From assembly GCA_004519485.1 (NCBI GenBank), contig CP038110.1:620001-684000 (forward strand): a DNA stretch of 64,000 nt. The letters run 5' to 3'. Below are positions 13,795 through 64,000 of this stretch, one piece after another. Made by a program: the position numbers and the translations under genes. The notes beneath the pieces were generated by a model that did not search any database, was not told the origin of the DNA, and saw nothing but the letters and a program-made list of their open reading frames with translations. This DNA is from Nannochloropsis oceanica. Taxonomy: Eukaryota > Sar > Eustigmatophyceae > Eustigmatales > Monodopsidaceae. The stretch's first letter is position 1. Each line of letters begins with the position of its first letter.

Positions 13795-16700
13795 ATGCAT
13801 AAAGCAGGGACCATGGTGCCGCCGCCATCACCCGTGGCCGCCGGCCCTACAACAAGAAGAAGAAGGCATTCTGCGTCAACTTCAAAGACCTTCCACTTAC
13901 TCCTACTCCTGGCGGCAGCTAGCTATGCCCGTACCACCACTGGTTTCCTTCAGGTACCCACGCCTTCTAAGGAACTAAGTATAGTACGGCCTGGTGTTGG
14001 CATAAGGACAGTGCTTCCACAGACCAGGTACGTGAGAATTGGGTGAAAAAGGGAAGTACGACCGCAATATCTGCTGCTCCGCTGCACGTCATGTTAAGGG
14101 TTGTGCACAGAGAGAGACATACAGCTGGTGTTGCGCATCATTTCCACTGCTTCCAGTTTTGGAATGTATTATTTGACCTGTCTGTAGCGCTACTGTGCTT
14201 GCTGGATACGTATATATCAACCCTTAGACCAAATTCAACCTTGCCCATATCTCATTCCCCTCCTCCTTCCCTCCCGTCACCTCTCCATCAAAATATAGCC
14301 TCCTCATCCTCCATGCCGGCAAACGCGGCGGCGGCGGAGGAAAATACAATAGTCAGAAGAAGAAGCAAGTTCAACAAAACCCCAAAGGGCTGGGCCGCAT
14401 CGAGCCCCCTGCCACCTCTGCTCCTCCTCCCCCTTCCTCCCCTGACCCCCGCGGGATGCTCTGGGAGGGCGAGGATGAGGACGAGGACGAGGACGGAGAG
14501 GAGGAAGATTCGGAAGTATTGGAATTTCAGGGGTTGATGGACCGAGGGGCTTTTCAGTTATTGGATGAAAATGACGTGGAAATTGATGAGAAGTATGACA
14601 TGTTCGACAAGGAGGACGAGGAAGAGAGGGAGGACGAGTTGGAGGAGGAAGAGGAGGAGGAAGGGGGGGATGGAAGGCCGAAGAACGACCCAGAGTGGCA
14701 GTTTTTTGATACGGCCAAGGTGTACGTTAAAGGAGGCGACGGGGGGGATGGATGTGTGGCGTTCCGACGCGAGAAGTTCGTTGACATGGGAGGGCCGAAT
14801 GGAGGGAGCGGGGGAGCAGGAGGGAGTGTGTTTTTTCGATGCGACGAGGGATTAAACACACTGGCAGGGCTTAGATCCAAAGTGCATTGGAAGGCGCTGG
14901 GGGGAGGGCGGGGGCAGGGGAAGAGTCGGACGGGACCGTCGGCACAGGATGTGATAGTGGATGTGCCGCCGGGGACGATTGTGAGGACGTTGGACGGAAC
15001 GTTAGCTGGGCAGTTGATCGAGCACAACCAGAGGGTGTTGGTAGCGAGGGGCGGGAGGGGGGGGAGGGGAAATGAGCAGTTTAAGAGCGAGAGGAACAAT
15101 GCGCCCAAGCTGATGGAGAAAGGGGAGCCCGGGGCCGAACGGTGGCTGCAGGTGGAGTTGAAGCTGGTGAGGGACAGAGGGAGGGAGGGAGGGAGGGAGG
15201 GAGGCAAGAAAGGAAGGTAGGGCGCTCGGACGGGTATTTCGATATAATCACTTGAAATAAAGTTGCCCACCCCCGTTCCTCCCTCGCTGGATGGCGGACA
15301 AAAGAGCTGTTTGGCGTGCGGCCACGAAGAACCCCCGCTCTCCAATGACATATCTCAGGCTGTCCCTCCCTCCCTCCCTCCCTCCCCCCCTCCCTCCCTC
15401 CTGTTCCATCAGGTGGCGGACGTGGGTTTTGTGGGGGTCCCTAATGCGGGGAAGAGCACCCTCCTGGCGGCTGTGAGTAACGCCAGGCCCAAGATCGCGG
15501 ATTATCCATTTACCACCATCGTGCCCAATCTGGGAGTGTGGGACGCGTCGGAGACGGTGAAAGGTGAGGGAGGAAGGGAGGGAGGGAGGGAGGGAGGGAG
15601 GGACGAAGAGGCGTTGCTCTCTTGAGCTACCATAGCCCTATTTTTGCCCAACTCTCCAAACTGATAAACACCTCTCGCTCATTTCTTCCTCCCCCCCTCC
15701 CTCCCTCCCTTCCTCCCTCCCTGCCACACTAACTTCCCTTCCGTCTTGTTTCATTTTCGCAGGGGAGTGGGTTGAGAAGGGTATGGTCCTCGCGGACATT
15801 CCCGGGCTTCTAGAAGGAGCACATCAAGGCATCGGACTCGGCTTGGCCTTCCTGCGGTAGGTGAAGGGGCTGCGAGAGGGAGGGGAGGGAGGGAGGGTAG
15901 GGAGGGAGGGGATAGGTAGATCCAGACTTGACGAGTCAGGTGTCTGTCCCCATCTCTCTCCTCCTCCCTCCCTCCTCCTCATCATTTGCATTTCATTCTT
16001 CCCCTACCTACCTCCCTCCCTCCTCACATGCGTTTTGATCCTTTCAGCTACCTCTACCACACGCATGTGTGTCTTGTGTCCCTCTCTTTCTTCCTCCCTC
16101 CTTCTCTCCTCCTCATTTCTTACACCTCGATTTTTTTTCCACTAACACCTTACAGACATGTGCAGCGATGCCGTGTGTTGGTGCATGTCGTCAACGGAGA
16201 CAGTCCTGATCCTGTGGGGGATTTCGTGGCCATCAATCAGGTGCACCTCCTTCCCTCCCTCCCCCCCTCCCTGCCCCCCTCCCTCCCTCCATCCCTCCCT
16301 CCCTTTCTCCCTCCCATCCCCTTCCCTATGCCTTTGGTGATGTAAGCTGCGCAGGCCAAGGTTTCTTTTCGTTGTCGCCTAACGCTCTGCTTACACCGAC
16401 TCTCCCTCCTTCCCTCCCTCCTTCCCTCCCTCCTTCCCTCCCTCCTTCAGGAGCTCGCCCTCTTCAATCCGAAGCTAGCGGAGAAACCTCAGGTGGTAGT
16501 TCTTAATAAGATTGACCTAATAGAGCCTGAGAGACAAGCACACCTGGAGAAGCTTCTCAAGGAGGTACAAAGCAAGGGAGGCAGGGAGGGAGGGAGGGAG
16601 GGGGGGAGGAAGGGAGTGTGTGTGGGGGGAAAGATTTCCTCGCTGTGCATAGGCGTGCATCTCACCATCACGTCTTTATCTCTCCTCCCTCCCGCCCTCC

Positions 16701-17941
16701 TGCCCTCCCTTCTTCCCTCCTTTCCTCCTTCCCTTCCTCCCTCCCTCCTTCCCCCCCTCCATTCAGGCGATCCCCCACACTCGCTTCATGTCCATCTCCG
16801 CCATCAAGAAAACCAACACCGCCGAGCTCATGCACCGGGTAGGAAGGAGGGAGGGAGGGAGGGAGGGAAGGAGGGAGGGAGGGAGAGGAGTGAGGGCCCG
16901 TTAGAGTGAAATCTTAAGTGCTCAAAGGCTTTCCATCCCTCCCTCCCTCCCTCCCTCTCTCCTCTAATTCCAGGTGTGGAAGATGCTCAAGGTGATCAAG
17001 GACGAGGAAGAGGATTTGCTTAATGGAGAGGTCCCGATTCAATTAGACGAGCAGAGCTTTCGGATGTCCTACCAGATCATCACTGATCCCAAATACCCCG
17101 GGCAGTTCCGCGTGGTAGGGAGGGAGGAAGGGAGGGAGGGAGATGCTTAGTTCACTGTGTCCTTACTCTCATGTATCGGCCTCTTTCTCATCCTTTCTCC
17201 GTCCCTTCCTCCTTCCCTACATCGTTTTATGCTGTGATTATAGCAAGGGAAGCAGATCGAGAAGATTTGCGCCATGACCAATTGGGACTATTATGAGGCT
17301 GTGGAGCGGTGGGTGATGAGGGGGGAGGGAGGGAGGGAGGGAAGGAGGGAAAATGGGCTTGGAAAAGCACAGGCTGTCACGCTATTCGTTTGTTGTCTTC
17401 CTTATTGTTTTCCTCGCCTCGATTGTCTATGAATGGTTTCACTCATCTTGATTATCTTCTCACGCTTTCTCTCACCCTGACTGTCTCTCTTTACGTTTCG
17501 CCCCGACCTCCTCATTGCAGGTTTCAACGGATTCTGGAGGCAACGGGCATTGCCAAGACACTCAAGAAGAGGGGGGCGAAAGAAGGTGAGTCCCGTCTGT
17601 CCATCTGTCAGTGGGAGTGTGATGAGCAGGGATGGAATCAACATCGGAGGGAACAGGGAAGGGGGGTGGGAAGGTGGGGGGCATAGCAAAGACATTCTAT
17701 GAAGAAGGTGAGTCCCCTCTGACTGTCGGTCAGTGCCGAATGAGTGGGAGTGTGATGAGATGGGGTGGGATCGTTTCAATGTTCCCAGTGCTAATCCCCC
17801 TCCCTCCCTCCCTCCTCAGGCGACCTGATCATGATCGGCGATCGTGACTTTGACTATTCCCGAGAGACCAACGCATTCGCCGCTGCCGCCAACGACATAC
17901 GCACGTGGGACTCGGAGCAGCGGTATGATGAGGTGGACTAA
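13795..17941 (+). CDS. obg: Obg/CgtA-family GTPase, organelle-targeted, 11 coding segments
   Basis: Segments 13795-14027, 14299-15166, 15413-15563, 15763-15856, 16156-16240, 16451-16564, 16767-16838, 16974-17114, 17244-17308, 17521-17585 and 17820-17941 join with consistent phases into 669 aa. The N-terminus has a hydrophobic segment followed by ARTTTGFLQ, a plastid-type bipartite presequence. An acidic stretch precedes the Gly-rich Obg fold ([18 protein letters not shown]...GGPNGGSGG...[10 protein letters not shown]). The G domain has G1 GVPNAGKST, switch [11 protein letters not shown]3 DIPG, G4 NKID and G5 SAIKK. A C-terminal OCT-like domain follows ([35 protein letters not shown]) and ends [13 protein letters not shown]. 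Obg proteins act in large ribosomal subunit assembly, here probably in the plastid. Ten introns of 129-299 nt, many with GGGA and CCCT tracts. An alternative start is ATG 13813. Confidence 0.93.
15167..17819 (+). repeat. Polarised (GGGA)n / (CCCT)n intron tracts in obg
   Basis: Introns 15167-15412, 15564-15762, 16565-16766 and 16839-16973 each begin with GT followed within about 15 nt by repeated GGGA, and end with repeated CCCT close to the AG. Introns at 15857, 17115 and 17309 have the G tract with a weaker or no C tract. Intron 16241-16450 is C-rich at both ends. The first intron (14028-14298) has neither. Confidence 0.9.
17681..17761 (+). repeat. Relic duplication of obg exon 10 end plus donor
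   Basis: Inside the last obg intron, AGCAAAGACATTC...GAAGAAGGTGAGTCCC and the following GTCAGTG...GTGGGAGTGTGATGAG resemble the end of exon 10 and its donor region (about 17559-17635), offset by 122 bases. This gives a second GTGAGTCCC donor-like site at 17708. It looks like a decayed tandem duplication and is not needed for the protein. Confidence 0.65.
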
Positions 17942-18480
17942 ACAAAGGGGGAGGGAGGGAGGGAGGGAGGGAGGGAGGGAGGGAGGGAAGGACAAAGGCG
18001 CTTTCTTCAAAAACAGAAAAAAAAAAAAAAAAAAAAAAAAAAGAATAAACGACCGGCCGATATTGCGGATGGGATGAAAGCAGCGGGAGGATGATGGAAA
18101 GTAGCAGAGGAGGAGGGAGAGGACGAGGAGGGAAGTGCCTTTCCCTTCTCCTAATTTAATTTTAATTTTTAATTTTTTGTAATTTTTTAAATTTAGTTGT
18201 AATCTTGTCTTGTTTTTCTTTCTTTCTTTTTTGGAATCTCTTTTGTCCTGGGAAAGAGATATTGGTGCTCTCTTCCCCCATTTCCTCTTCCCGTGCTTCC
18301 TCTCTCTACACCTTATTACAGCTGCACCAAGGTCACCCCTCCCTCCCTCCCTCCCTCCCTCCTCCCTCCCTCCCTCCCCTATTCCGTCACGCCCTCTCGT
18401 CATTCGCCTGATAATTTTATATACACAACATACAGTAAAAACACCTTCCTCCCTCCCCCCTCCCTCCCTTCCCCCGGCTG
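17942..18480. other. Convergent intergenic region
   Basis: Lies between the 3' ends of obg (+) and the E1 beta gene (-). It contains a (GGGA)n run just after the obg stop, a 26-base A run at 18017-18042 followed by AATAAA, an AT-rich TTTAATTTTTAATTTTTTGTAATTTTTT stretch near 18155, and (CCCT)n runs at 18340-18380. No gene seen. Confidence 0.6.
18017..18042 (+). repeat. 26-base poly(A) run
   Basis: Homopolymer about 75 bases after the obg stop codon, followed immediately by GAATAAACG, which contains AATAAA. It may be a plain A-tract in the 3' flank. No target-site duplication or retroelement body accompanies it. Confidence 0.8.
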
Positions 18481-21108
18481 TCAGAAGTGAACTGCCTTCT
18501 TGATCGCCTCCAGGTTTTTGTAAGCGTCCGGAACGTAGTACTGAGGGAGGGAGGGAGGGAGGGAGGGAGGGAAGCGAAGGAAGATAGATCAGCCCACCTC
18601 AAGCTTTGAATTGAAACCCATCACTTGCTGCAGCCTCTCCTTCCCTCGCTCCCTCCCTCCCTCCCTCCCTCCCTCCCTCCCTCCCTCCCTCCCTCCCTCC
18701 CCACCTATTCGAATAGGAAAGGTGTATCGTACCCGCACACACGCCGCACCGGACCCTCCCCCCCTCCCTCCTCCCTCCCTCCCTCCCTCCCTCCCTCCCT
18801 ACCACCCTCCCTCCCTCCCCACCTTTTCGAACACCAAAGGGAAAGGCGTGTCGTACCCGCACACACGCTGCACCGGAGCCTCCAAAAAAAGAAAACATCG
18901 CTCTTGCATCTCAGCCACTACTTCAGCGGCAAAACCCCCTGTTTTCTGAGGGAGGGAGGGAGGGAGGGAGGACGAGACTGATGACCTACGTGCAGTTGTA
19001 AAAAGATGTAAGAGGGAGGGTTTATCATTCCTCAGGCTACTTCACATGAAGAGAGGGAGGGAGGGAGGCAGGGAACGTACAGGCGCCTCATGGCTAACCA
19101 CCAGCCGGCCCGTTTTGTGGACCGAGGCCATGACGGTGTCTGCGTCCCAAGGCAAGAGAGTCCGAAGATCGATGAGCTCGCAGGCTATCCCTTCATCAGC
19201 GGCCAAGTCGCAGGCCTGAGGAAGGGGAGGGGGGGAGGGAGGGAGGGCGGTGTAAACAAACCGTCAGAGTGCTGTTTGGGTCCCTCCCTCCCTCCCTCCC
19301 TCCCTCCCTCTCTCGCTCACCTTCTCCAGCACCCTCAGTTGCCCTCCCCATCCCACCACCGTGACGTCACGACCCTCCCGCAGCACGTCCGCCCGTCCGA
19401 GGGGGATGGTGTAGTCGCCTTCCGGGACCTGAGGGAGGGAGGGAGGGGGAGAAGGAGGGAGGGAGGGAGGGAGGGAGGAAGAAATGTCAACCCAAAGGTC
19501 CCACGCTACCCTCCCTTCCCTCCCCTCCTTCCCTCCCTCCCTCACCTCCTCCACCGCAGCGCGGTACAGTGCCTTTGGCTCTAGGAAAATGACGGGATCT
19601 GGCGCGCGAATAGAAGAGAGGAGGAGCCCCTTCGCCTCAGCAGGAGAACGAGGCATCACCACCTGCAGGATAAGAGGGAGGGAGGGAGGGAGGAAGGGAG
19701 GGAGGAAGGGAGGAAGGGAGGGAGGAAAAGAGGGGAAAATGAGAAGGTGAGTGAAAGAACGAAAGATTTTTCTCCACGTCTCCCTCCCTCCCTCCCTCCC
19801 TCCCTCCCTCCGTACCTTAAGGCCTGGTGTGTGGGTGAAATACGCCTCGGGCGACTGAGAGTGGTAATGCCCCCCATGACCGACGGCTCCACAGGGCGCT
19901 CGGACCGTCAGGCCCCCTGGTGAAAGGGAAGGGAGGGAGGGAGAGAGGGGAAGAAGGAGGAAGGGTGAGATGGAGGGCGGAGGAAGGGAGGAGAAAGGCA
20001 AGCTCCCCCACAGGGGGTTCGGGGCGTCAGGCCACCAATTGTAAAGGGAGGGAGGGAGGAGAAGAAGAGGGAGGGAGGGAGGGAGGGAGGTACGTACCAC
20101 AATTGAATTGATTGCCGGAGCGGTACCGAAATTTGGCGGCCTCGTTAACGAGCTGTGAATCATGGTGGAGGAAAGAATATTGAATGATAATATTTATAAG
20201 AATAATAGTAATAATAAGATATTTGAGAAGAATAAGAAGAATGAGAATAAGATGAAATAGAATAATGAGAAGAAAAAGACCAAGACAAATCTAGATGAAT
20301 TTTCACACCTGACGTGTCGTCTCCGCCCCTTCCTCCCTCCTATCCACCCATATCTTAGCTACCTGATCAAAAGCCGGGAAAATATAATCAGCAAATTGAA
20401 TCTCGGCAATTGCTGTCTTCCCCAACGAGGCATACCCGATCCCAAAGCCGGCGATCCCCTGGGAGGATGGGAGGGGGGGAGGGTGGGGGGGGGGATGGGG
20501 CTCAAGCTCCAGCTCTTGGTCAATCGCCCCCAAGAAATCCTTACTTGCTCGCACAAGGGCGTATTAAAGACCCGGCCATCTCCGAAATCTTCGCGCAAAC
20601 CCACAGTGCAACGGAATACGCCGCCAAAGGCCACGTCCTCCCCGAAAATAATCTGTGAGAGGGTGGAAGAAGGGGGGAACAAAGGGTGGATGAGAGTGGA
20701 GCCGGGATGCACAGACACATTTGAACGTAGCTCCAGTAATAAATTCAGCGAAAGTATTCTCTTCCTGTCTCTAAGCCCTCCCATTCCTTCCTCCTTTCTT
20801 GCTTCTCCTCCCCTCTCCTTGCGACATACCGCGCTCTGGTCCGTGTCCATGGCTGTGCGCAAGGCATCATTGATGGCCGTGAACAAGTTCATCCGCTTCG
20901 TCATTACACCTGCAGCCGGGGTGTAGCTGCGTGTCGTCTGCCGGTATTCGTGTTGGAGATGACAAGAATGAGGAGAAGGGAGGGGTCGAGGACATGCCCA
21001 TAAACCCCCACGTACCGTGCGGAGGCTCGAAGAAAGCAGCCGACGACGCAGGCGTCCGGGAGCCCGTGCAGTCCCTGCGACGGTAGAAAGGAACGCAATG
21101 CCTTGCAT
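18481..21108 (-). CDS. BCKDHB: Branched-chain 2-oxoacid dehydrogenase E1 beta subunit, 11 coding segments
   Basis: Segments 21108-21016, 20937-20830, 20652-20545, 20458-20363, 20152-20098, 19916-19816, 19662-19546, 19428-19321, 19215-19081, 18945-18823 and 18540-18481 join in phase into 367 aa, close to the family's usual length. An Arg/Ser-rich mitochondrial presequence comes first. Signature blocks follow: [110 protein letters not shown] and [14 protein letters not shown]. Together with E1 alpha, not in this window, it forms the thiamine-diphosphate-dependent decarboxylase of valine, leucine and isoleucine breakdown in the mitochondrial matrix. Pyruvate dehydrogenase E1 beta was considered, but the [23 protein letters not shown] block is the branched-chain type. 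Introns are 78-282 nt; several carry the GGGA/CCCT tracts. Confidence 0.95.
18541..19815 (-). repeat. Polarised (GGGA)n / (CCCT)n intron tracts in the E1 beta gene
   Basis: Read on the minus strand, introns 19663-19815, 19429-19545, 19216-19320 and 18541-18822 each start with GT followed by GGGA repeats and end with CCCT repeats before AG. Introns 19917-20097 and 18946-19080 have CCCT repeats at both ends. The introns nearest the start (20459-21015) have at most weak tracts. Confidence 0.9.
18705..18766 (-). repeat. Decayed duplicate of the 10th E1 beta exon end
   Basis: Within the last intron, a second copy of the exon end encoding [16 protein letters not shown] is followed by TAG and then the same GTGGGGAGGGAGGG donor context as the functional copy (18823-18880). 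It has lost residues in the FPLV stretch and carries an in-frame stop at its last codon. Use of this copy would truncate the C-terminus, so it looks like a pseudoexon. Confidence 0.8.
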
Positions 21109-21819
21109 AGTGCATGCACGAGCGTGGATGTAGTTCTGGATCTCGTCCACGGTGTTCCGGCAGAGGGTTTTTGTGAGACGCCTGCTTGCGTTGATGTGCT
21201 TTGTGCGACCTTCTGCTGCACTGCCCAATTTTTGCCGCTGTCGGCCTGTGGTTGGGTTTAAAAGCGCAGATAGAATGCCCGTGCATAGATTTTAGGGTGT
21301 AGGGAGATTATGTTAGGACGCTGTTGAACATAAATGTGCGTGTATTTGGCCCTGGTCCCAGCAAAGAGGCGCAGAATAGGCGGGGTTGTTGACACAGTGA
21401 CGTCGGTTATCAGACGACCTCCCCATTCCCCCCTTCACAACACCCCTTACAAAGCTACGAGTCCCTACGCTGGACCATCACTACCACCAGTGACACCAAA
21501 GCGAGAAGAGAGTTGGCACTGTCACTCTTATTGACAGCCTCCAGCCCCTCGGACTCGGATCGCTTTGCGCGTATGGACCGCCCGTAAATGTTTTAGCCTC
21601 CCCCCTCCCCAACTTGACGTCTCCTCCCTCCCCCTGTGCCATCTTGCAGGGTCACTCAAGCATCACCGGGGAAATGGAGTGAGATGAGAATTAAAATGCA
21701 AACCAAGACCTCTTCATGCCGCGCCGAGCAATTACACTTGCCAAAGACACACCTTATTCACTCGTCCTCTCCTCTCCCCTCCCACATCCCGCACATTCAT
21801 CGTCACCGCAGGCGGGTGA
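21109..21819. other. Divergent intergenic region
   Basis: Separates the starts of the E1 beta gene (-) and the 2H phosphoesterase gene (+), so it should contain both promoters. The minus-strand frame of E1 beta stays open to 21228, giving an alternative upstream start, but the presequence fits the 21108 Met better. Confidence 0.5.
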
Positions 21820-23196
21820 ATGCACCTCGAGTCCCTCTCCTCCTGTAAGGTTCCTCTTTCCTTGGTATTCCGTGCCGAGCCTAGACTCAAGCCAATAGCT
21901 CCTCGTTCTCCTCCCCTCTCCCGGACCCTGCTCGCTAGCCTTCTCATCCTCTCCTCCTCGTCGTCGTCATTGCCTTCTTCCGGCGCACCGCATTTTCGCC
22001 AATCCCCCTTTGCCGGCCCACTTTCATCTTTTATCCTCTCATTGCATCCGTGGAAAAGGACAATGCAGAATTCTATTGCCCACCTCTCTTCTTCCCCCTC
22101 GTCCTCCTGTGACTTTACCCCCTCGAAGTTCCAAAACCCCTCGTGGCACACAGAAGAGAACGTGAGCCTGCAAGACTCACAAGCACAGCAAAACATAAAT
22201 CGCCAACAGCACAAGCGCTTCCATCCTTCTCCTCCTCCTTCCCGCCCAACCCACTTCCTCGCAGTCAAGCTCTCCTCTCCCTCCCTTCATTCTAGTATTA
22301 AGTCGATCCAAGACGAAATGATAGAGATGCACGGCCCGACACTGGAGGAGGCAATGGTATCCCCATCCAAGTTGCATCTAACGTTGGCGGTCTTACACTT
22401 GGAAGACGAGGATTCCAATGAGGAGGAGGAGAAGGGAGAGGAAGAGGGAGGGTGGAAAGAAGAAGGAAGTCGAGGAAGTGCGCCAGGTTCTACCGTAACT
22501 CTACGAAGCGAAACAGCGGTAGCAGCTGCAGTACTAGCACCAGTAGGAGTAGAAGAGGGAGGAGGAGAAGAAAGAGGTGGAGCGCTGGGATCACCCCTCC
22601 TTCCCTCCCTCCCTCCCTCTTTCCCTAGGCCCACCGTCTCCCGCACCCGTGCCTTGATTTCGTCGTTAATGCAGGAAGAAGTCAGGCCATGGCTCCTTAG
22701 AGAGAATGGAGGAAAGCCTCCTTCGTTGCGGCTGGTAGGCTTAGGGTCCTTTGGTGAGAGAGTGGTGTTTGTCCGCCCTGATGAGGAAGAGGAGGAGGAG
22801 GGAGGGAAGGAAGGAGGGGCGAAGGGAGGGACGAGGTGGATGCAACAGGTGGTGATGAGGATTAGGGAGAGGCTGTTCGAGGAGGGCTTGACCAAAGAAA
22901 AGCCTCCCAAAGGAATAAAGGAAGTGTTTTTGCACGCAACAATAGCAAAAATGAGGGTGAAGGGAGGAAGAAAAGGAAGGGGAAAGAAGGGAGGGAGGGA
23001 GGCGTCGTTGTTGAGAAGAGAAGTGTGGATGGAGCATGACAAGAAGTGGGGACTGGGAGGGGAAGAGCAGGTACTAGAGACGTTACAGTTGTTAGAAATG
23101 CAAGGGGATGGCGAGGGGTACTATGAGCGCGTAGAAGAATGGCAGTTTGTGGAGAGGAAGGAGGAGCGGAGATGGGTAGGAAAGAAGGAGGGGTAG
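21820..23196 (+). CDS. 2H phosphoesterase superfamily protein (AKAP7/LigT-like)
   Basis: Single open frame, 458 aa. The domain begins at THFLAVKLSSPSLHSSIKSIQDEM, and the two catalytic HxT/S motifs are HLTL (His186) and HATI (His372). The spacing between them is widened by two low-complexity insertions rich in Glu, Gly and Lys. The segment RTRALISSLMQEEVRPWLLR...LRLVGLGSFGERVVFVRP matches the central part of the AKAP7/ASCC1-type 2'-5' RNA ligase-like domain. Members bind or hydrolyse 2',5'- or cyclic-phosphate nucleotides and oligonucleotides; the substrate here cannot be inferred. Residues 1-145 are Ser/Pro-rich and unconserved, and the true start could be a later Met such as the one at 22063. 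Lys-rich patches near the end could be nuclear localisation signals. Confidence 0.8.
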   Translation: MHLESLSSCKVPLSLVFRAEPRLKPIAPRSPPLSRTLLASLLILSSSSSSLPSSGAPHFRQSPFAGPLSSFILSLHPWKRTMQNSIAHLSSSPSSSCDFTPSKFQNPSWHTEENVSLQDSQAQQNINRQQHKRFHPSPPPSRPTHFLAVKLSSPSLHSSIKSIQDEMIEMHGPTLEEAMVSPSKLHLTLAVLHLEDEDSNEEEEKGEEEGGWKEEGSRGSAPGSTVTLRSETAVAAAVLAPVGVEEGGGEERGGALGSPLLPSLPPSFPRPTVSRTRALISSLMQEEVRPWLLRENGGKPPSLRLVGLGSFGERVVFVRPDEEEEEEGGKEGGAKGGTRWMQQVVMRIRERLFEEGLTKEKPPKGIKEVFLHATIAKMRVKGGRKGRGKKGGREASLLRREVWMEHDKKWGLGGEEQVLETLQLLEMQGDGEGYYERVEEWQFVERKEERRWVGKKEG

Positions 23197-23751
23197 AGGA
23201 AAGGTAATTGGAATGGATGGGGAAAGAGGGAGAACGCTTAGAAGATAAAGAGGAGAACTGTGCGGTAGAGGAATGAAATGTATCAGGAAATCGAAAAATT
23301 GCGCGTCCTGTACAATGAAAAGGCAAAGAATGTAAAGGAGGGGAAGCTCACGAGAGCGGGAGAGCGGAGGGTTTGGGGGAAAAAAAGAAGACCTTCAGTG
23401 TGCAAAGACTCTTCAAATCTAGCACCAAGATGCACTTGCACCTTAAAGACATGTCATGCGTCTGTTTACTGTACTTGTATGTTATTTTTTTAACTTTTTA
23501 CCCTCCCACAACCAGCGGCTCGAAGGAGCAATCATAGCCGCACGCATCATGCTCTTGCCGGCGAGGGTCCTCCAGACTGAACTTACACCTGTCCACATCA
23601 TAACATCGCCTGCGACTCCTCACACACACACTTTCAACACTCTTCTTTGCATTTTACAGGAGGCCTGACAAGCTCAAGCAAGCGGGAGCCATTTCCTAGG
23701 TCTTCCTGTCCTCCTTTCGTTTAACATCATCATCGCACGGGAGGCTTGAAC
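23197..23751. other. Intergenic, tandem plus-strand genes
   Basis: About 555 bases holding the 3' end of the 2H gene and the promoter of the next. Purine-rich to 23400, then mixed. Nothing coding recognised. Confidence 0.5.
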
Positions 23752-25842
23752 ATGAAGCAGCACTTGGGCATGGCCGCAGCAGCGGCAGCAATGCTAGCTG
23801 CCTGTCTCACGCCCACTATTACAGCCTTCATCCCTCTCTCTATGCCTTCCTCCTCCTCGTCCTTGACATGCCTGTCCCGCAGCAGCATTAGGGGAGGCGC
23901 AAACCTTGCTTCTTTTTCCCTTTCCCCCAGGAGCAGACCGTCCTCCTTCTCCTCAACCATTGCCACTGCCACCGCGACTTCCTTTTCTCAAGACCCAATA
24001 AGACCAGAGCAACAACAATCACAACAATCACGGTGGCAGAAGTCGCTTCAAAATATCCAACATAGCCTCCACACCCTCTCCCCCAAGGCCCAAGCCGTTC
24101 TAGCCACCCTCCCCATCGTCGTCCTCGCTGCCACTCTCGTATTCACTCAAGGCCCAGCCATCGCACAAGCCGCCACCAAGCGTGCCGCCGCCTCCTCCCC
24201 TCCCTCTGTTCGCACCAACAAAGTCCGCGAATATGTACTAAAACCTCTCGGAGAATCCGTGGGCAAACTAGGCGCCTTTCCCCCACTGAGAGCCTTCCGC
24301 AGCATCACACACTCCCTCTCCCACTGGGCCACCCACGGTCCCATCGCCCAATTTTTTAGCACTGCCTGGAACGAGCCGGCCGCGCGGTACATGCTCGATC
24401 CGACCACCACCCCCCTTGCCCCCAATGACATCGCCGGCCACGTGCTCGAGGCCATCCAGGCCCGCGTCCCTCCCACCTGGTCTCCCCTCGCCGTCGTCGC
24501 CCTCCTCTCCTTCCTCCCCATCTTCGAAGCGCGTGTGGGAGTCCCCTTCGGCCTAGCCTTGGGTGCGCCATGGCTAAAAGCTCTCGTGGTTGGAATGGCT
24601 GCCAATGCCCTTGTCATACCGGTGGCTGCCGGTATGGGCACGTTTTTCCGGGATGTGAATAACGCGTCTCCTTTGCTCGAGACGGCAACGGCCGCAAGGG
24701 AGAGATATCAGGATCTAGAGAGAGCTTTTCAAGAGCTGCAAGGGCGCTTGGCTCTCAAGACGCGAGTGTTGGAGGAGGAGGAGGGGAGGCTGCGGTTGAC
24801 TATTGACACGGCGATTGCGGTAGTGAGGAAGGGGGAACTGGTGATGGACTTGGCAACCAGACAGGGGCTTGTGAAAGAAATCACCGAGGCCTCCAAGGTG
24901 TTGCTTGGCCTAAGTGAAAGCGACGCGAAACAATTCAGTCAACGACTGGAGGAACAGTTTTTTGAGACGTCCGTTGGGAGCGTGATGAGCGACAGCGACG
25001 GCGCATTTGAGGATGTGTCGGTCGCGGACTTGGGACAGAGAAGGGTGGAGCTGGCATGGCACCCGGATGTGACCTTATTTCCGAAGCTTGGTCAGGCAGT
25101 TGTGAAATACCAATTGGACGAAATCGCAGGGCAGGCTCAGGCGGATTTCACGATCAGGCCGCGGGAGTTGGAGTTGTTGAGGGAGGAGGTGAAGCGGCTG
25201 AAGGAGGAGGTAGGGAGGGAGGGAGGGAAGTTGAGGAAATTGGCAAAGAAGGCTGCGGAGGTAGGGAAGGAAACCGTCCGGGTGGCGCGAGAGTTGGATG
25301 CTGGCGTGATCACGGCGGAAGATAAGGCGAAGGCCCGCAAGGAGGCAATGGCCAAAGCAAAAGAAGAAGCAGCAGCAGCAGCGGCAGCAGCAAGCCCTGC
25401 CGGCGGCCCTGGAAAATTCGTCCCCATGGCCGAAAGAGAGAAGGAGGAAGAAGCCCGCATCGCCGAGCTGCAGATGCAGGGGAAATTGATGCGCAACTAT
25501 GGATGGCCGAAAGCAGTGGTGTATGTAGGCTTGCCCTTGCCGTTCTCAGGCGTGTGGACCGCGATGTTCTGGTCAAAGTGCCTGGGGATGAAATTTGGGC
25601 CTTCGGCGACTGGAGCGTTGGTAGGCTTAATCTTATCCACATTGATAGGGCTTGGGTTGTGGTTGACGGGACCTGTTGGGGTGTTGATATACGGTCTGGT
25701 CCTGGCAGTGATGTACGGGGAGGAGAACCCGGCGATGGCCGTGGGGAAGGTGCTGGTGATGCTGAGGGAGGGGTTGGCCGGGATTTTCAAGGGAGGGGGA
25801 GGGAAGAATAGGGAGGGAGGGGGGACAATGGGAAGGAAGTAG
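23752..25842 (+). CDS. Plastid small multidrug-export-like membrane protein with coiled-coil insert
   Basis: Single open frame, 696 aa from ATG 23752. Signal-like N-terminus (MAAAAAAMLAACLTPTITAF) with Phe after the cleavage region, then a Ser-rich transit stretch: a plastid bipartite presequence. A first membrane segment lies at about 120-145. The core has WSPLAVVALLSFLPIFEARVGVPFGLALG followed by a hydrophobic helix, and near the C-terminus VVYVGLPLPFSGVWTAMF...TGALVGLILSTLIGLGLWL. These resemble the two halves of the Sm_multidrug_ex (small multidrug export, PF06695) family, in which an ExR/P motif and a PLP-GxxT motif recur. Between the halves sits an insert of about 270 residues with two long charged coiled coils (around 310-380 and 460-560). 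The prokaryotic family is about 150-200 aa, so the insert is a large elaboration. Transport substrate unknown; probably envelope or thylakoid. Confidence 0.75.
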   Translation: MKQHLGMAAAAAAMLAACLTPTITAFIPLSMPSSSSSLTCLSRSSIRGGANLASFSLSPRSRPSSFSSTIATATATSFSQDPIRPEQQQSQQSRWQKSLQNIQHSLHTLSPKAQAVLATLPIVVLAATLVFTQGPAIAQAATKRAAASSPPSVRTNKVREYVLKPLGESVGKLGAFPPLRAFRSITHSLSHWATHGPIAQFFSTAWNEPAARYMLDPTTTPLAPNDIAGHVLEAIQARVPPTWSPLAVVALLSFLPIFEARVGVPFGLALGAPWLKALVVGMAANALVIPVAAGMGTFFRDVNNASPLLETATAARERYQDLERAFQELQGRLALKTRVLEEEEGRLRLTIDTAIAVVRKGELVMDLATRQGLVKEITEASKVLLGLSESDAKQFSQRLEEQFFETSVGSVMSDSDGAFEDVSVADLGQRRVELAWHPDVTLFPKLGQAVVKYQLDEIAGQAQADFTIRPRELELLREEVKRLKEEVGREGGKLRKLAKKAAEVGKETVRVARELDAGVITAEDKAKARKEAMAKAKEEAAAAAAAASPAGGPGKFVPMAEREKEEEARIAELQMQGKLMRNYGWPKAVVYVGLPLPFSGVWTAMFWSKCLGMKFGPSATGALVGLILSTLIGLGLWLTGPVGVLIYGLVLAVMYGEENPAMAVGKVLVMLREGLAGIFKGGGGKNREGGGTMGRK

Positions 25843-26735
25843 AAAGAAAGATGCTATTTTAAATGAATGTGCGGGGGAGGCAGCGACGCCCAGTTCCTTC
25901 CTTTCCTCAACAAAGAAAGACAGGAGTTTTAAGTGAACAATACACATACCCGTGCGCGCACACACACATTCACTCACGAAGCCCGTAGAAGCAGCAGAAG
26001 CGGCAACAACAGCAGACAACAAAAAACTAAGAACAAAAAGAAACGACAGGCGAAACGCTTTGATGGAATTAAATTGTTGTGTGTTGAGGCCTTGATCTAT
26101 TGATTCGTTTGGGTGTGGCAGTCCGGGAGCTCTCCTTTTGAAGAGAATGGACGACGATGCGCATGGCCTCCTCCCTCCTCCCCCTTCCCCGCCCTGGTGA
26201 CCGCAAGAACACGTCAAGGAGGGATGCGGGGCTGAAGGAGGCGCCCGGTCCCATCCACGTGCTGAAAATCGCTCTGAAAATAACATTGATTGACTTCCTC
26301 CTCTTTTTTCTCCTCCTCCTCTTCCGCCTCTTCCTCCTTGTTTTGCTCCTCCTCTTCTTCCTTACCTTACCATCGTCCTTGTTCTCGTCCTTATTTTTCT
26401 TGTTCATATTCATGCTCTTCTCTTTCTGCTTCTTCTTCTGCTTCTTTTCTGGCTTTTGCTCTCCATGTCTATGGTTTCTAGAAGCTTTCACGTTCTTCCT
26501 TCTCAATCCTTTTTTCTTCTCTGTTGCTGCTTTTCCTGCTGCTGCTGCAACGTTTTCTGCTGCTGCTGCTGCCGCTGCTCTTTCTTAGTGTATTTTCAAG
26601 CATGCCAGGCCATGTCGTCATAGTCTCCCTCCCTCCCTCCCTCCCTCCCTCCCTCTCTCCCTCTCTCAGCCCCACGGAGGCTCTCACCGCACGGACCTTG
26701 CCCTCCCGCCCTCCCGCCCTCCCTCCTTCATCTCC
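25843..26735. other. Intergenic, with a Lys/Arg-rich open frame of doubtful status
   Basis: Lies between convergent genes. On the minus strand 26506-26069 is open and would encode a Lys/Arg-rich peptide (KKRRSKTRRKRRKRRRR type), but this follows from AAG/AGG-like triplet repeats. I see no domain, no clear splice partner and no conserved tail. (CTC/CTT)n and (CTG)n tracts cover 26290-26580 on the plus strand. Confidence 0.4.
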
Positions 26736-29700
26736 TCAGTTGCCCACCGTGATCTCGGCTACTCCCTCCGCCAAGCCATCCACCCCCTCCTCCCTCCCGC
26801 CCTCCTTCAAGCCATCCAGCAGGTCTTGCTCGATTCCGAAGCCCGGCAGCTGCAGCACGAAAGGATCGCGGGGAGGGTAATCACCCTGGAGAAAGTCCCA
26901 ACGGTTGATGGTGTTGTGGTACGCCTGGGTGAGGGAGGGAGGGAGGGAGGGAGGGAGGGAGGACGGGAATGAGCATCACGTGAAAGCTGGTGGCTGCTGC
27001 GGGTCCGGTGGACAGGAAAGGTAGGGACGGAAGGAAAGAAGGAAGGAGGGAGGAATGGAGGGACGGAGGACCTACCTCAGTAATATGCTGAATGGAATAA
27101 TTGCGGCCACTGCTCTTGTCCACCTGGTAGGGAGGTATGAGGGAAATGGCTGTCCCGGCGCGCCCGAAACGGCCGACGCGACCGATCCGTTGCATGTACC
27201 GTTGGGGGTCACACAGGTCGAAGTTGATGACGACAGAGGCCTAGAGGGAGAAAGGAAGGGAGGGAGGGAGGGAGAAAAGGAGGAGGGGGAGGGAGGGGAA
27301 ATGCATTTGTTGGAGGGAGCGATAGATGGATATACATCTCGCAAAACTGAATTTTCAAAAAAGGAAACGCCTTTCCTCCCCTCCCACTACATACCGCCTG
27401 CACGTCCAAGCCACGGGCCAGGGCATTGGTGCAGACCAACACGGTCTTGCGCCCGGCCTTGAAGTCCTCGATGTTAACGGTGTAGCGGGTCCCTGGAAGG
27501 AGGGAGGAAGGGCGGAAGGGAGGGAGGGAAGGGGGGTGGTAAGTCATCCATTTGATTTGCCCTACTTTTGTCACTTCGGATACAAGGAGGGTAGCTATAC
27601 GCTCTGTACGATTCTCCCTCCTTCCTTTCCTCCTTCCCTCCTTGATTCCTTCCCTCCCTCCCCCCCTCCTACGTACCCGGGTAGTCGTTCGCCTTCATCA
27701 CCATCTCCACTTGGTCCTGTCAAAAAAGAGGAAGGGAGGGAGGAAGGGAGGGAGGGAGGGAGGAAGGGAGGGGTTCAGGTGTCAGTTTTGTATCGCAAGT
27801 CACAGAAACATCCAAGCCCGAACGAACGAGGGAAAAAAGGAGAAAGATGGGACAATTTTTAAGTAACCTAAACGCTGCAGAGCATGTACCAACTGTCCGT
27901 CCCTCCCTCCTTCCCTCCCACCCTCCCTCCCTCCCTACCTACCTACCTTATTGGTACAAAAGCAGTAGATCTGTCCGTTGGCGAAGATGGATACCAGCTT
28001 CTCCATGGTGGAGAGCTTCAGCTGCATGAGCTCCGGCAGCCACACACGTTCGTCATTGCGATGCATCACCACATAAAACTGGAGGGAGTGAGGAAAGAAG
28101 GGAAGGAGGGAGAGAGGGATAAGACTAGATGAAATGCTGTACACTTCATGCAGAAAAATATACTTGATCCCTCATACATTATCATTTTCTTGCTCCCTCC
28201 CTCCCTCCCTCCCTACCTCCCTCCCTCCCTTCCTACCTGCTGGATGTTGGCACGGTTTAGCTCATGGTCTTGAAGGGTGATGAGGACGAACGCATCCCGG
28301 GGGAAAATCTCTTGGGCGGCTTTGGTTGTCTCGGGAGAGAAGGTGGCGGAGCACAGGGCGATCTACAGGAGGGAGGGAGGGAGGGAGGGAGGGAGGGAGG
28401 GAAGTATGAGGGTTGAGTTACGCGGTGATCAAATAAATCAACGGGTGGCAGAAAAGGGATAGAAGAAAGTGACGATAGGTGAAACGATGACAATGAGGAG
28501 AGAGAAAAGAAAAGATGCAACATAAAAAATAAATAATGTACATATATTATATTTAGACGTGATTCAAAAAGCGGGAGGGATGACGCACCTGCGTGGTGGG
28601 GCTGAGCTTGCGTGCCAATCCCTGCAGCATAACGTAGTTGGACGAGGAGTCCTTGGCGGTGCCGCCTGTAATTAATTTAATTTGATTTACATGAGTTTAA
28701 TTTGATTTATATTACAATTGAGGAGTCCTTGGCGGTGCCGCCTGTAATTAATTTAATTTGATTTACATGAGTTTAATTTGATTTATATTACAATTGAGGA
28801 GTCCTTGGCGGCGCCGCCTGTAATTAATTTAATTTGATTTACATGAGTTTAATTTGATTTATATTACAATTAGCCGGGGAGGATATTGACAAATATCAGG
28901 TTGCCTGAAATGTACTCTTGTTCGACATACGGGGATGATTGAACGATTAATGTTTCGTACAATCCAGGAGGGGATATCACAGAGTGCTTCCATTGAATTT
29001 AACAAACATCCGGAGGTGAGTTCTTCTTCTTACCATGTTCTGCCTCCCCATTGGGATTGCGGCAATCAAACAACATCTCGTCCGCCTCGTCCAGGACGAG
29101 GAACTTAGTGTTCTTCAACCAAATGACAGGCCCGAAACGATCACGGCCCTAGGGAAACGAAGGGAGGGAGGGAGGAAGGGAGGGTAGCAGGTGTGTTGAG
29201 CGATTTCATCCCTCATTTCCCTTCGTCGTCATCTTCGTCCTGTCGCTACTACTTTTATTCTGCTTCTGTTTCACCCTCTACCCACCCTCCCTCCCGCCCT
29301 CCCTCTCGCCCTCCCTCCCGTACCTCTGCCAGGTCGCAGATGCGTCCCATAGTCCCCACCAGAACATGAGGAGGGGTGGCCTTAAGGGTCTTGACCAAGG
29401 CAATACGCTCATCACGGGCCTCCTCCGTCTTGACGTGAGGCGAGCCCACGCAGCATTGGATGCGCAGCTGCAGGGAAAGAGGGAGGGAGGGAGGGAGGGA
29501 CGAAGGGAGGGACGAAGGGAAGGGGTGAATAAAATCTCGTATGAACGAGGAATCGTTTCTCCCTCGTCAATGAGGCTCACAGCACTTGTCCTCTTCCTCC
29601 CTTTCTCCCTCCAGGCGGTTCGAGGTATTCCCTTTCCCTCCCTCCCTCCCTCCCTCCCTCCCTCCCTCCCTCCCCCCCTCCCTACAGGTGGGTCCAAATA

Positions 29701-30872
29701 CTGCCCCAGCGACTCGATCTCGGCCGTTACTTGACGAGCCAAATCGCGGTTGGGCACAAGCACGATGGCTTGGATGGCCTCCTTGTCCGGCACGCCTGAG
29801 GGGAAAAAGACAGGGAAAGGGAGAGGGGCAGGGAGGGAGAAAGGAAAGGCGTAAGGAACTTGACGCATCCCACGGGTGCCTGTGCCCTCGCGCCCCTTCC
29901 CTCCCTCCTTCCCTCCCCGTCTCCCCTCTTTACCGGTGTCGATGGCGTTCAAGATGGCTGTGGCGAAGATCGCCGTCTTGCCATGCCCCGACTGGGCCTG
30001 GAGAAGCATGTTTTTCCCGTCGAGCAGGGGCTGCGGGGGAGGGAGGGAAGGAAGGAAGGAGTGAGGGGAGGCGGGTGTTGAGGTTTGATGAGTCCCTCAC
30101 ATAACACAGGAAATCTCAAGGAATCGGAACCCATTCAATCCTTGCCATCATCCCTCCCACACACCCTCCCTCCCTCCCATCCTCCCTCTCACCTTGATGC
30201 CGAGCTTCTGGCACTCAGACGGCTTTTCAAAGCCCTTGGAAAAGATACCGCGCATCACCGGTTCCTTAAAATCGAAGCCTTCCCATGTCTCGATGGGCTC
30301 AACGACATAATCCTTCTCATGGAATTCAATACGCTGCCTGGCAAACCCCCCCCCCCCCTCGCTGTCGATCCCCTCCACGTCCCCTCCCTCGTCCTCGTCC
30401 ACGGTAACCGCCTTCTCCTCCCCTCCCTCCTTCCCGGCCTCCCCCGCTTCTTCGTGACCCAAAGTTGGAAAAATCGCCCTCCCCACGTGCACCGCCACGG
30501 TCGCTAAAGTCACGAGCCGCGGCTGTAGCGCCCCCAAAGCCGCCACCGCGGGAAGGACCAGCAGCAGTACGTTGTGGGGCAGGGTAAGTCACCTCCTTTT
30601 GGGTGGTGGGTCGGACAGGCGTGAAGTCATCGTCGTCATCCGCCCATGATTTTTGAGGCGCACTGCGCACGGGTGCCTGATGTGTGGTGTGACGGAGATG
30701 GGAAGGGGAGGAGAACGGCAGTGAGGAAAGAGGAGAGGAGAGGAAAGCAAGGGTGGTAGGTAGGGGAGCAAAGTTGGTGTTATGAGAGGTCAGGCCATCC
30801 ATTCATACAGCCACATACACTGAAAAGTCTCGTCGTACGTACCTTGTCGTCGTCGTCCCAGTTGTCGGCCAT
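26736..30872 (-). CDS. eIF4A-like DEAD-box RNA helicase with RGG-rich N-terminus, 13 coding segments
   Basis: Segments 30872-30843, 30676-30193, 30030-29934, 29795-29686, 29467-29324, 29148-29034, 28665-28589, 28362-28237, 28078-27947, 27716-27677, 27492-27395, 27240-27076 and 26924-26736 (about 601 aa). The N-terminus is MADNWDDDDK, then an RG-rich stretch (GGYRGRGRGRGRGG), then the Q-motif region (IETWEGFDF...GFEKPSECQ). Motif I is AQSGHGKT, Ia PNRDLA, Ib TMGR, II DEAD, III SAT, V ARGLD and VI RIGRVGRFGRAGT. Several deviate from consensus (GTGKT, PTRELA, TPGR), and the usual HGDxxQxxR stretch between motifs IV and V is not visible. Nearest type is eIF4A/Dbp5, but it is divergent. Segment 2 has a one-base frame conflict at a 13-G run (30346-30358): the RG-rich part and the Q-motif part are in different frames. 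The other junctions agree in phase. Confidence 0.88.
26925..30192 (-). repeat. Polarised (GGGA)n / (CCCT)n intron tracts in the DEAD-box gene
   Basis: On the minus strand, introns 30031-30192, 29796-29933, 29468-29685, 29149-29323, 28079-28236, 27717-27946 and 27493-27676 begin with G-rich GGGA repeats just after the donor and end with CCCT repeats before the acceptor. Intron 27241-27394 is weaker. Intron 26925-27075 is C-rich at both ends, 28363-28588 has only the C-rich end, and 28666-29033 and the first intron lack the pattern. Confidence 0.9.
28647..28874 (-). repeat. Three 76-bp tandem copies spanning an exon-intron edge
   Basis: Units start at 28647, 28723 and 28799 and are almost identical; the third differs at one base in GGCGGYGCCGCC. 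Each contains, on the minus strand, an AT-rich intron end, the acceptor ATTAATTACAG and the first bases of exon 7 (GGCGGCACCGCCAAGGACTC). Only the copy nearest the exon body (28647-28722) continues into the coding exon; the other two create upstream decoy 3' splice sites. Confidence 0.92.

Positions 30873-60219: not shown

Positions 60220-64000
<3,781 letters not shown>

Follow-up and report, generated by a model that had tools for sequence, protein, structure and literature searches.

Oriented repeats in three intron-rich genes

Three genes, namely obg, the gene for branched-chain E1 beta and an eIF4A-like DEAD-box gene, lie within a window of 64,000 nucleotides (nt) from Nannochloropsis oceanica (bases 620001-684000 of contig 13; the window is the whole of this stretch), and many of their introns begin with a (GGGA)n tract and end with a (CCCT)n tract. 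In this sequence-only analysis of one genome the intron borders of the three genes were set by eye on the transcribed strands, using GT-AG and the reading frame, which gave 29 curated introns (obg 9, E1 beta 9, DEAD-box 11), all of them with GT-AG borders, as imposed by construction. Homology matches to solved structures take in 28 of the 29 junctions, the exception being the last DEAD-box junction. E1 beta is matched best by branched-chain E1 beta (BCKDHB; 1dtw_B, E 8e-147), in an alignment that covers query residues 69-393 and has a single gap of one residue; obg aligns to 1lnz_A over residues 14-346, and a match to 1udx_A, taken from the match table only, spans residues 14-444 and supports the final three obg junctions by its table row, not by an inspected alignment. 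The spliced E1 beta and obg proteins align to 1dtw_B and 1lnz_A without intron-sized insertions, and residues 13-407 of the DEAD-box protein align to eIF4A with several gaps. The introns and the tracts that directly follow the stop codons are, in window coordinates:

15167-15412, plus: obg intron 1, GGGA start, CCCT end; junction within 1lnz_A match
15564-15762, plus: obg intron 2, GGGA start, CCCT end, C tract well upstream of AG; 1lnz_A match
15857-16155, plus: obg intron 3, GGGA start, single CCCT in last 60 nt; 1lnz_A match
16241-16450, plus: obg intron 4, CCCT at both ends, without complementary partner; 1lnz_A match
16565-16766, plus: obg intron 5, GGGA start, CCCT end; 1lnz_A match
16839-16973, plus: obg intron 6, GGGA start, CCCT end; 1lnz_A match
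17115-17243, plus: obg intron 7, GGGA start, weak CCCT end; 1udx_A table row
17309-17520, plus: obg intron 8, GGGA start, one CCCT near end; 1udx_A table row
17586-17819, plus: obg intron 9, weak GGGA start, CCCT end; 1udx_A table row
17947-17992, plus: GGGA tract directly after the obg stop codon (17939-17941); sequence reading
20653-20829, minus: E1 beta (BCKDHB-like) intron 1, weak GGGA start, CCCT end; 1dtw_B match
20459-20544, minus: E1 beta intron 2, no 5' tract, C-rich end; 1dtw_B match
20153-20362, minus: E1 beta intron 3, no tracts; 1dtw_B match
19917-20097, minus: E1 beta intron 4, CCCT at both ends; 1dtw_B match
19663-19815, minus: E1 beta intron 5, GGGA start, CCCT end; 1dtw_B match
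19429-19545, minus: E1 beta intron 6, GGGA start, CCCT end; 1dtw_B match
19216-19320, minus: E1 beta intron 7, GGGA start, CCCT end; 1dtw_B match
18946-19080, minus: E1 beta intron 8, CCCT at both ends; 1dtw_B match
18541-18822, minus: E1 beta intron 9, GGGA start, CCCT end; 1dtw_B match
18444-18475, minus: GGGA-rich tract directly after the E1 beta stop codon (18483-18481); sequence reading
30031-30192, minus: DEAD-box intron 1, GGGA start, CCCT end; eIF4A match
29796-29933, minus: DEAD-box intron 2, GGGA start, CCCT end; eIF4A match
29468-29685, minus: DEAD-box intron 3, GGGA start, CCCT end, highest motif copy number of the 29; eIF4A match
29149-29323, minus: DEAD-box intron 4, GGGA start, CCCT end; eIF4A match
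28666-29033, minus: DEAD-box intron 5, no tracts, tandemly repeated acceptor; eIF4A match
28363-28588, minus: DEAD-box intron 6, CCCT end, one CCCT near start; eIF4A match
28079-28236, minus: DEAD-box intron 7, GGGA start, CCCT end; eIF4A match
27717-27946, minus: DEAD-box intron 8, GGGA start, CCCT end; eIF4A match
27493-27676, minus: DEAD-box intron 9, GGGA start, CCCT end; eIF4A match
27241-27394, minus: DEAD-box intron 10, weak GGGA start, CCCT end; eIF4A match
26925-27075, minus: DEAD-box intron 11, CCCT at both ends (weak at start); junction outside the eIF4A match
26701-26726, minus: GGGA-rich tract directly after the DEAD-box stop codon (26738-26736); sequence reading

Calling a tract wherever at least two motifs lie within the first or last 60 nt of an intron, we found GGGA starts in 21, CCCT starts in 4, CCCT ends in 25 and GGGA ends in none of the 29 introns; within-intron base shuffles gave means of 1.1, 4.0, 4.1 and 0.8, respectively. 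A GGGA start is combined with a CCCT end in 19 introns (15 at a threshold of three motifs). An earlier sequence-only reading of this DNA had put such introns at 15 or more, had seen none in the reverse order and had described a polarity that follows the transcribed strand, and all three statements hold: the reverse order is absent from the 29 curated introns as well as from the 132 of the combined set described below, and the tracts run on the plus strand in obg and are mirrored in the minus-strand E1 beta and DEAD-box genes. Its total for the same three genes was 32 introns, compared with our 29. The oriented repeat is thus confirmed as a real feature, and the interpretation built on it is partly supported. 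Two points are new: four introns carry CCCT at both ends (obg 16241-16450, E1 beta 20097-19917 and 19080-18946, DEAD-box 27075-26925), and a GGGA tract directly follows the stop codon in 3 of 3 curated genes. The branch-point motif CTRAY occurs near the 3' end of nine of the 29 introns.

Some of these introns also carry local duplications. Within obg intron 9 the donor region occurs twice (17580-17760; second copy near 17704). At about 18703-18755 (minus strand), E1 beta intron 9 holds a decayed tandem copy of the end of the preceding exon with its own donor, GGGA tract and an in-frame TAG, likely the product of a tract-mediated local duplication and possibly a decoy donor or poison exon. The end of DEAD-box intron 5 (about 28666-28840, minus strand) consists of tandem units of about 80-90 bp, each with an acceptor and the start of the next exon, and hence offers several equivalent acceptors.

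A wider intron sample and genome-wide counts

The wider sample comprised 354 kb (264 kb of contig 13, the window included, 50 kb of contig 1 and 40 kb of contig 2) and was searched with our own gene finder in five settings, two of which are blind to intron-side splice motifs except GT and AG. Polypurine and polypyrimidine runs of 12 or more are scored as zero, so that the tracts cannot shift exon borders. Introns called in at least four of the five settings and no longer than 1200 nt were taken as robust (135); 175 of 296 and 48 of 63 distinct calls were excluded as made in fewer than four settings, as was one intron above 1200 nt, and removal of 14 near-copies in tandem paralogues left 121. 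In the combined set of 132, the 29 curated introns replace 18 finder introns in the three genes and are joined by the finder introns elsewhere.

In the combined set 60 introns start with GGGA and 21 with CCCT (sign test, 2e-5), 81 end with CCCT and none with GGGA; the end pairs are GGGA/CCCT in 44, CCCT/CCCT in 21 and CCCT/GGGA in no case. By the two-motif count, the 3' rule (81:0) is therefore without exception, and the 5' rule (60:21) is looser. Outside the three genes the 103 finder introns gave 39 GGGA starts, 17 CCCT starts, 56 CCCT ends and no GGGA end. A G at position +5, which the finder does not use, is present in 84% of GGGA-start and 68% of CCCT-start finder introns and thus supports the finder sample, with the caveat that in GGGA-start introns the tract itself can provide that G.

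As controls we used pseudo-introns, i.e. length-matched GT..AG stretches no more than 15 kb from the respective intron of the 121 set and outside called introns. Against the expectation from these of 12.9 GGGA starts, 11.7 CCCT starts, 13.4 CCCT ends and 14.0 GGGA ends, the 121 introns have 51, 19, 69 and 0; since pseudo-introns include coding DNA, this measures a local excess and not an excess over non-coding DNA alone. Annotation-free pattern counts over the whole genome, in which overlapping matches are counted and long tracts therefore count repeatedly, agree in direction. For tract pairs 40-70 nt apart, GGGA3 precedes CCCT3 1867 times and follows it 244 times; at 90-120 nt the counts are 4294 and 2700, the weaker bias to be expected when exon-sized spacings come in. 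Shortly before TNCAGG, CCCT3 occurs 2356 times (backward control 475) and GGGA3 718 times (control 1009), and after CAGGTRAG we counted 260 GGGA3 (control 41) and 77 CCCT3 (control 4), a raw ratio of 3.4:1 for GGGA. Polarity and an excess over nearby DNA, which the sequence-only reading had named beforehand as its refuting test, are upheld in the wider sample and in the genome-wide counts, as far as these were run.

A regional strand bias of the repeat was considered and rejected, as tract-rich 20-kb bins are nearly balanced between the strands (e.g. 45/42, 19/19, 20/25, 30/22); tract-poor bins are less so (e.g. 2/9, 6/13). A transcription-wide strand asymmetry was likewise rejected, because tract orientation flips inside a single transcript. 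The 5' orientation of neighboring introns was the same 17 times and different 19 times.

Polarity around coding segments and before acceptors

The polarity extends beyond introns. In the 120 nt after the stop codons of 60 predicted genes (contigs 13 and 1), at least two GGGA motifs were found in 28 cases and at least two CCCT motifs in 6, and in the 120 nt before the ATG of the same genes the numbers were 5 and 17. As the gene models are incomplete, the 38 genes with a last exon of at least 300 nt are the safer subset; here GGGA follows the stop in 15 and CCCT in 2. Among 34 stops of open reading frames (ORFs) with a strong coding signal and near-copies removed, we kept the 17 that end predicted genes or lie outside them: at least two GGGA motifs follow in 8 and at least one in 14, and CCCT in none at either threshold. 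With an alternative filter (the 34 stops minus 7 near robust introns) the count was GGGA 14 and CCCT 3, the latter three being antisense inside predicted genes and some of the 14 likewise falling within genes. Gaps of 80-600 nt between tracts were judged coding, by an open frame and a positive coding score, in 39 of 74 cases for CCCT..GGGA and in 9 of 49 for GGGA..CCCT, with same-orientation pairs intermediate (19 of 52 and 20 of 44). Because GGGA also follows stop codons, the polarity is centered on coding segments, and the rule, for intron borders as well as gene ends, is CCCT before a coding segment and GGGA after it.

U2-type introns have a polypyrimidine tract and an AG exclusion zone before the acceptor, and the introns studied here share this grammar. 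The dinucleotide AG occurs at 0.013-0.015 per nt in the last 60 nt of 96 introns, compared with 0.046-0.051 at 63-103 nt upstream (an approximately threefold depletion) and 0.10 in the first 60 nt. GGGA coverage 20-60 nt before acceptors is only 0.000-0.013, and even in 51 introns without tracts C-runs outnumber G-runs before acceptors by 81 to 10. The 3' ends are thus pyrimidine-rich and AG-poor, as in U2-type introns, and the shared grammar explains why they carry CCCT only: (GGGA)n is full of AG and devoid of pyrimidines. What differs is that the tract here is often (CCCT)n.

Proposed origin of the polarity

We think that a symmetric microsatellite was probably, though by no means certainly, sorted by the grammar of splicing, and that the introns do not carry a purpose-built hairpin. 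A strand-symmetric, slippage-prone (GGGA)n/(CCCT)n microsatellite would be dense in much of the non-coding DNA, and the orientation surviving at each site would be set, presumably through selection, by the needs of the RNA there. Before an acceptor only CCCT would be tolerated, as a polypyrimidine tract without AG, every GGGAG unit being a potential premature AG. After a donor GGGA would be favored by about 3:1, as it offers no decoy polypyrimidine tract and may supply G-runs, which elsewhere form quadruplexes or are bound by U1 snRNP or hnRNP H/F; downstream of a stop codon it would be favored since a CCCT tract could serve as a cryptic acceptor. CCCT would in this way act as a potential acceptor signal, kept where an acceptor is wanted, and GGGA would be tolerated or useful elsewhere but not before acceptors. 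The complementary ends of many introns would then be a by-product of two separate orientation rules.

Several observations weigh against this explanation or the data beneath it. In three cases a GGGA tract sits in the 3' half of an intron, though not within its last 60 nt, and a quadruplex motif falls in the last 70 nt of 3 of 132 introns. CCCT starts (19) do not fall below the pseudo-intron mean (11.7, standard deviation 3.2), so that CCCT is 'avoided' after donors only relative to GGGA. Compared with the backward control, CAGGTRAG is followed by CCCT with a greater enrichment than by GGGA, which counts against a special bond between donor and GGGA, and the donor-side lean of introns without tracts is weak, G-runs prevailing in 21 and C-runs in 13. 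The counts before the ATG are also weak and make this the least secure part of the polarity rule, and of the 34 ORF stops, the 17 that fall within predicted genes, several in antisense orientation, are followed by GGGA in 8 cases and by CCCT in 4. Finally, in the curated loci 13 of 18 finder introns were exact, 4 had one end right and 1 was wrong; 16 of the 29 curated introns were not called exactly, and calls outside the three genes rest on the finder.

Alternative explanations

It is also possible, and we hold this tentatively, that donor GGGA has been kept as a positive splicing element, recruiting U1 snRNP or hnRNP H/F-like proteins or forming one-base-loop G-quadruplexes, with the 3' CCCT as an ordinary polypyrimidine tract; this is compatible with sorting by splicing grammar, and as the two explanations overlap, both can be true. 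GGGA coverage is highest at +10 to +40 from the donor. Of 132 introns, 46 have a quadruplex motif within their first 70 nt, compared with 5.3 (standard deviation 2.1) in pseudo-introns (C4 motif: 19 of 132), an excess on the non-template strand directly downstream of donors, and folds that permit quadruplexes are predicted to use one in 12 of the 29 curated introns. In 50 introns without tracts G-runs lead weakly near donors (49 to 32). The quadruplex excess and this lean point to G-runs being put to use near donors, and a role of GGG runs or predicted quadruplexes beside the 5' splice site, perhaps as enhancers, which the sequence-only reading had named as its alternative, would be compatible with the sequences. 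Mammals and birds, too, show an enrichment of quadruplex motifs on the non-template strand downstream of 5' splice sites, strongest in short introns, although the part of that survey used here confines the association, among its species, to these two groups (PMC9065059). However, GGGA follows stop codons as well, where there is no donor, and 21 of 132 introns have CCCT at their start instead, so that a function at the donor is not the whole story; the comparison of the donor motif with its backward control, given above, also goes against it. In tract-poor contig 1 a donor GGGA tract is found in only 1 of 10 introns, none of which violates the 3' rule, and splicing in general can therefore do without the repeat.

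Mutational seeding appears doubtful as an explanation. Here slippage from the splice signals themselves (GTGAGGG, GTAGGG; CCCTNCAG) would copy their orientation, without selection on the tract. Nine of 35 donor tracts do begin within 4 nt of the GT, and the exon copy in E1 beta intron 9 shows that local duplication occurs beside tracts, but the majority begin further in (up to +60), the GGGA tracts after stop codons and the CCCT starts lack such a seed, and GGGA is rare even 20-60 nt before acceptors.

The sequence-only reading had proposed that the two tracts of an intron could pair, looping out the intron and drawing its splice sites close to each other. That they evolved for this purpose, as in the (AC)m-(GT)n introns that Lin et al. 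2016 are said to have found bridged by RNA structure in fish, we consider improbable. The fish introns likewise bear complementary simple repeats at opposite ends; here the repeat is another one, co-occurrence within genes and pair matching are not significant, and many introns have ends that are non-complementary. Complementary simple repeats occupy both ends of 19 of 29 curated and 44 of 132 combined introns, and when the 19 curated GGGA/CCCT introns are folded singly, 17 of them have 21-53 of the first 70 nt paired to the final 70, compared with 7 and 0 in the remaining two (five of these introns are shorter than 140 nt, so that their fold windows overlap), but these end-to-end stems arise because the repeat itself guarantees pairing. 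An intron's own ends match no better than swapped ends, whether the swap is made within the gene (curated 19; -77.4 versus -75.0 kcal/mol, P 0.57) or across the robust set (35 introns; -69.8 versus -67.7 kcal/mol, P 0.47). Over all introns GGGA starts and CCCT ends do co-occur (odds ratio 2.6, P 0.012), and the genome-wide order of tracts at 40-70 nt (1867 versus 244) also fits pairing. When 3' ends are permuted within genes, however, the 44 observed pairs compare with 41.6 expected, a non-significant excess in a test of limited power (P 0.14), whereas the non-complementary CCCT/CCCT combination exceeds its permutation more (21 versus 17.7, P 0.009, n=132). The association is equally strong across exons, where an intron's 3' end is compared with the 5' end of the following intron (odds ratio 2.7 versus 2.6 within introns). 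Looping out an exon would be no harder either, since most internal exons in the three genes (40-165 nt) are shorter than the introns (86-368 nt).

Minimum-free-energy folds of whole pre-mRNAs join 299 nt of the 5' tracts to the 3' end of the same intron and 391 nt to 3' ends of other introns; pairing within the intron prevails in obg (166/54) but not in E1 beta (40/122) or the DEAD-box gene (93/215). Splicing of the fish type would depend on the stem rather than on U2AF2; a U2AF large-subunit homologue, which also counts against evolved pairing, scores 302.5 bits, just below the cut-off of 310.3. We therefore rejected an intron-specific stem as the cause of the polarity on the swapped-end duplexes, the within-gene permutation, the exon-flank association, the CCCT/CCCT introns and the whole pre-mRNA folds. 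Of the proposed stem there remains the ability of the tracts to pair in folds; matched ends and within-gene co-occurrence did not hold up. Stems could still have a minor role, in that co-transcriptional folding could favor an intron's own ends.

That introner-like elements with terminal inverted repeats created these introns is very improbable, and was rejected: GGGA/CCCT ends are inverted repeats, which introners often bear (PMC9860276, in the part used here), but the repeats are a plain microsatellite, interior sequence shared across many loci was not found among the 135 robust introns except in 15 that sit in tandem paralogue genes and lack tracts, and the main text of PMC9860276 does not mention Nannochloropsis.

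Relation to known systems

Among eleven species surveyed, mammals and birds had an excess of splice-site quadruplex motifs, whereas the enrichment was limited in lizard and the motifs were relatively depleted in frog and zebrafish; the survey concluded, in the part used here, that the enrichment does not extend further (PMC9065059). The algal introns resemble those of mammals and birds in that the motifs lie on the non-template strand, directly downstream of the donor, and in short introns; what sets them apart is that a single tetranucleotide repeat supplies most of the motif, that the host is a unicellular stramenopile, that the acceptor obeys the opposite rule and that GGGA tracts come after stop codons as well. 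Our finding questions the published view that confines splice-site G-quadruplex enrichment to mammals and birds. A bolder reading, rather unlikely in our judgment, is that CCCT/GGGA forms a two-sided marker of coding segments in which donor GGGA, quadruplex-capable in about one third of the sampled introns, provides working splicing enhancers; G-quadruplex-assisted 5' splice site recognition would then have had an independent, non-vertebrate origin from a microsatellite.

In human introns whose polypyrimidine tract is weak, both G-rich and C-rich intronic splicing enhancers are used (PMC2481429). They share with the algal introns the presence of G-run and C-run motifs in one intron, but the human motifs, as described in the part of that source used here, both lie upstream of the weak polypyrimidine tract and are partly interchangeable, whereas the algal tracts are sorted by intron end. 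For Nannochloropsis CCMP1779, 8.7% of low-complexity or simple repeats has been given, in a passage that does not mention introns (PMC3499364). Gene and exon numbers in published genome papers imply more than 10,000 introns. Our searches of the open-licence literature, judged by titles and the starts of abstracts, listed no report of GGGA/CCCT introns or of this orientation rule in Nannochloropsis, and the parts of PMC12702839, PMC6610115 and PMC3499364 used here hold nothing on intron tracts.

The same repeat, available in either orientation at very many sites and filtered by its position in the transcript, amounts to a natural orientation experiment on the scale of a genome. The roles of the polypyrimidine tract, AG exclusion and donor G-runs thereby become readable in a compact, transformable algal genome, and the orientation rules are relevant to gene prediction and transgene design in this eustigmatophyte, an oil-rich single-celled biofuel alga.

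Further observations

Tract density varies about sevenfold across the three sampled stretches, with 298 tracts in the 264 kb of contig 13, 15 in the 50 kb of contig 1 and 85 in the 40 kb of contig 2, near its end; the first-listed matches on contigs 1 and 2 cluster toward the contig ends, and this variation suggests a subtelomeric gradient. Contig 1 begins with CCCTAA telomere-like repeats. At about 704900-724210 of contig 13, three similar predicted multi-exon genes stand in a row, with introns that lack GGGA/CCCT tracts and are about 82-87% alike among the matches listed; they are a tandem gene family that escaped the repeat.

Within the window, a run of about 10 or more G at about 30345-30360 (minus strand) interrupts the reading frame in the upstream part of the DEAD-box gene, reflecting either a homopolymer length error of the assembly or an undetected intron. 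A PPR protein encoded in the window is 60% identical to an N. gaditana PPR protein, and the PPR gene contains a very long asparagine-coding repeat (62664-63167) that reads as poly-leucine in antisense.

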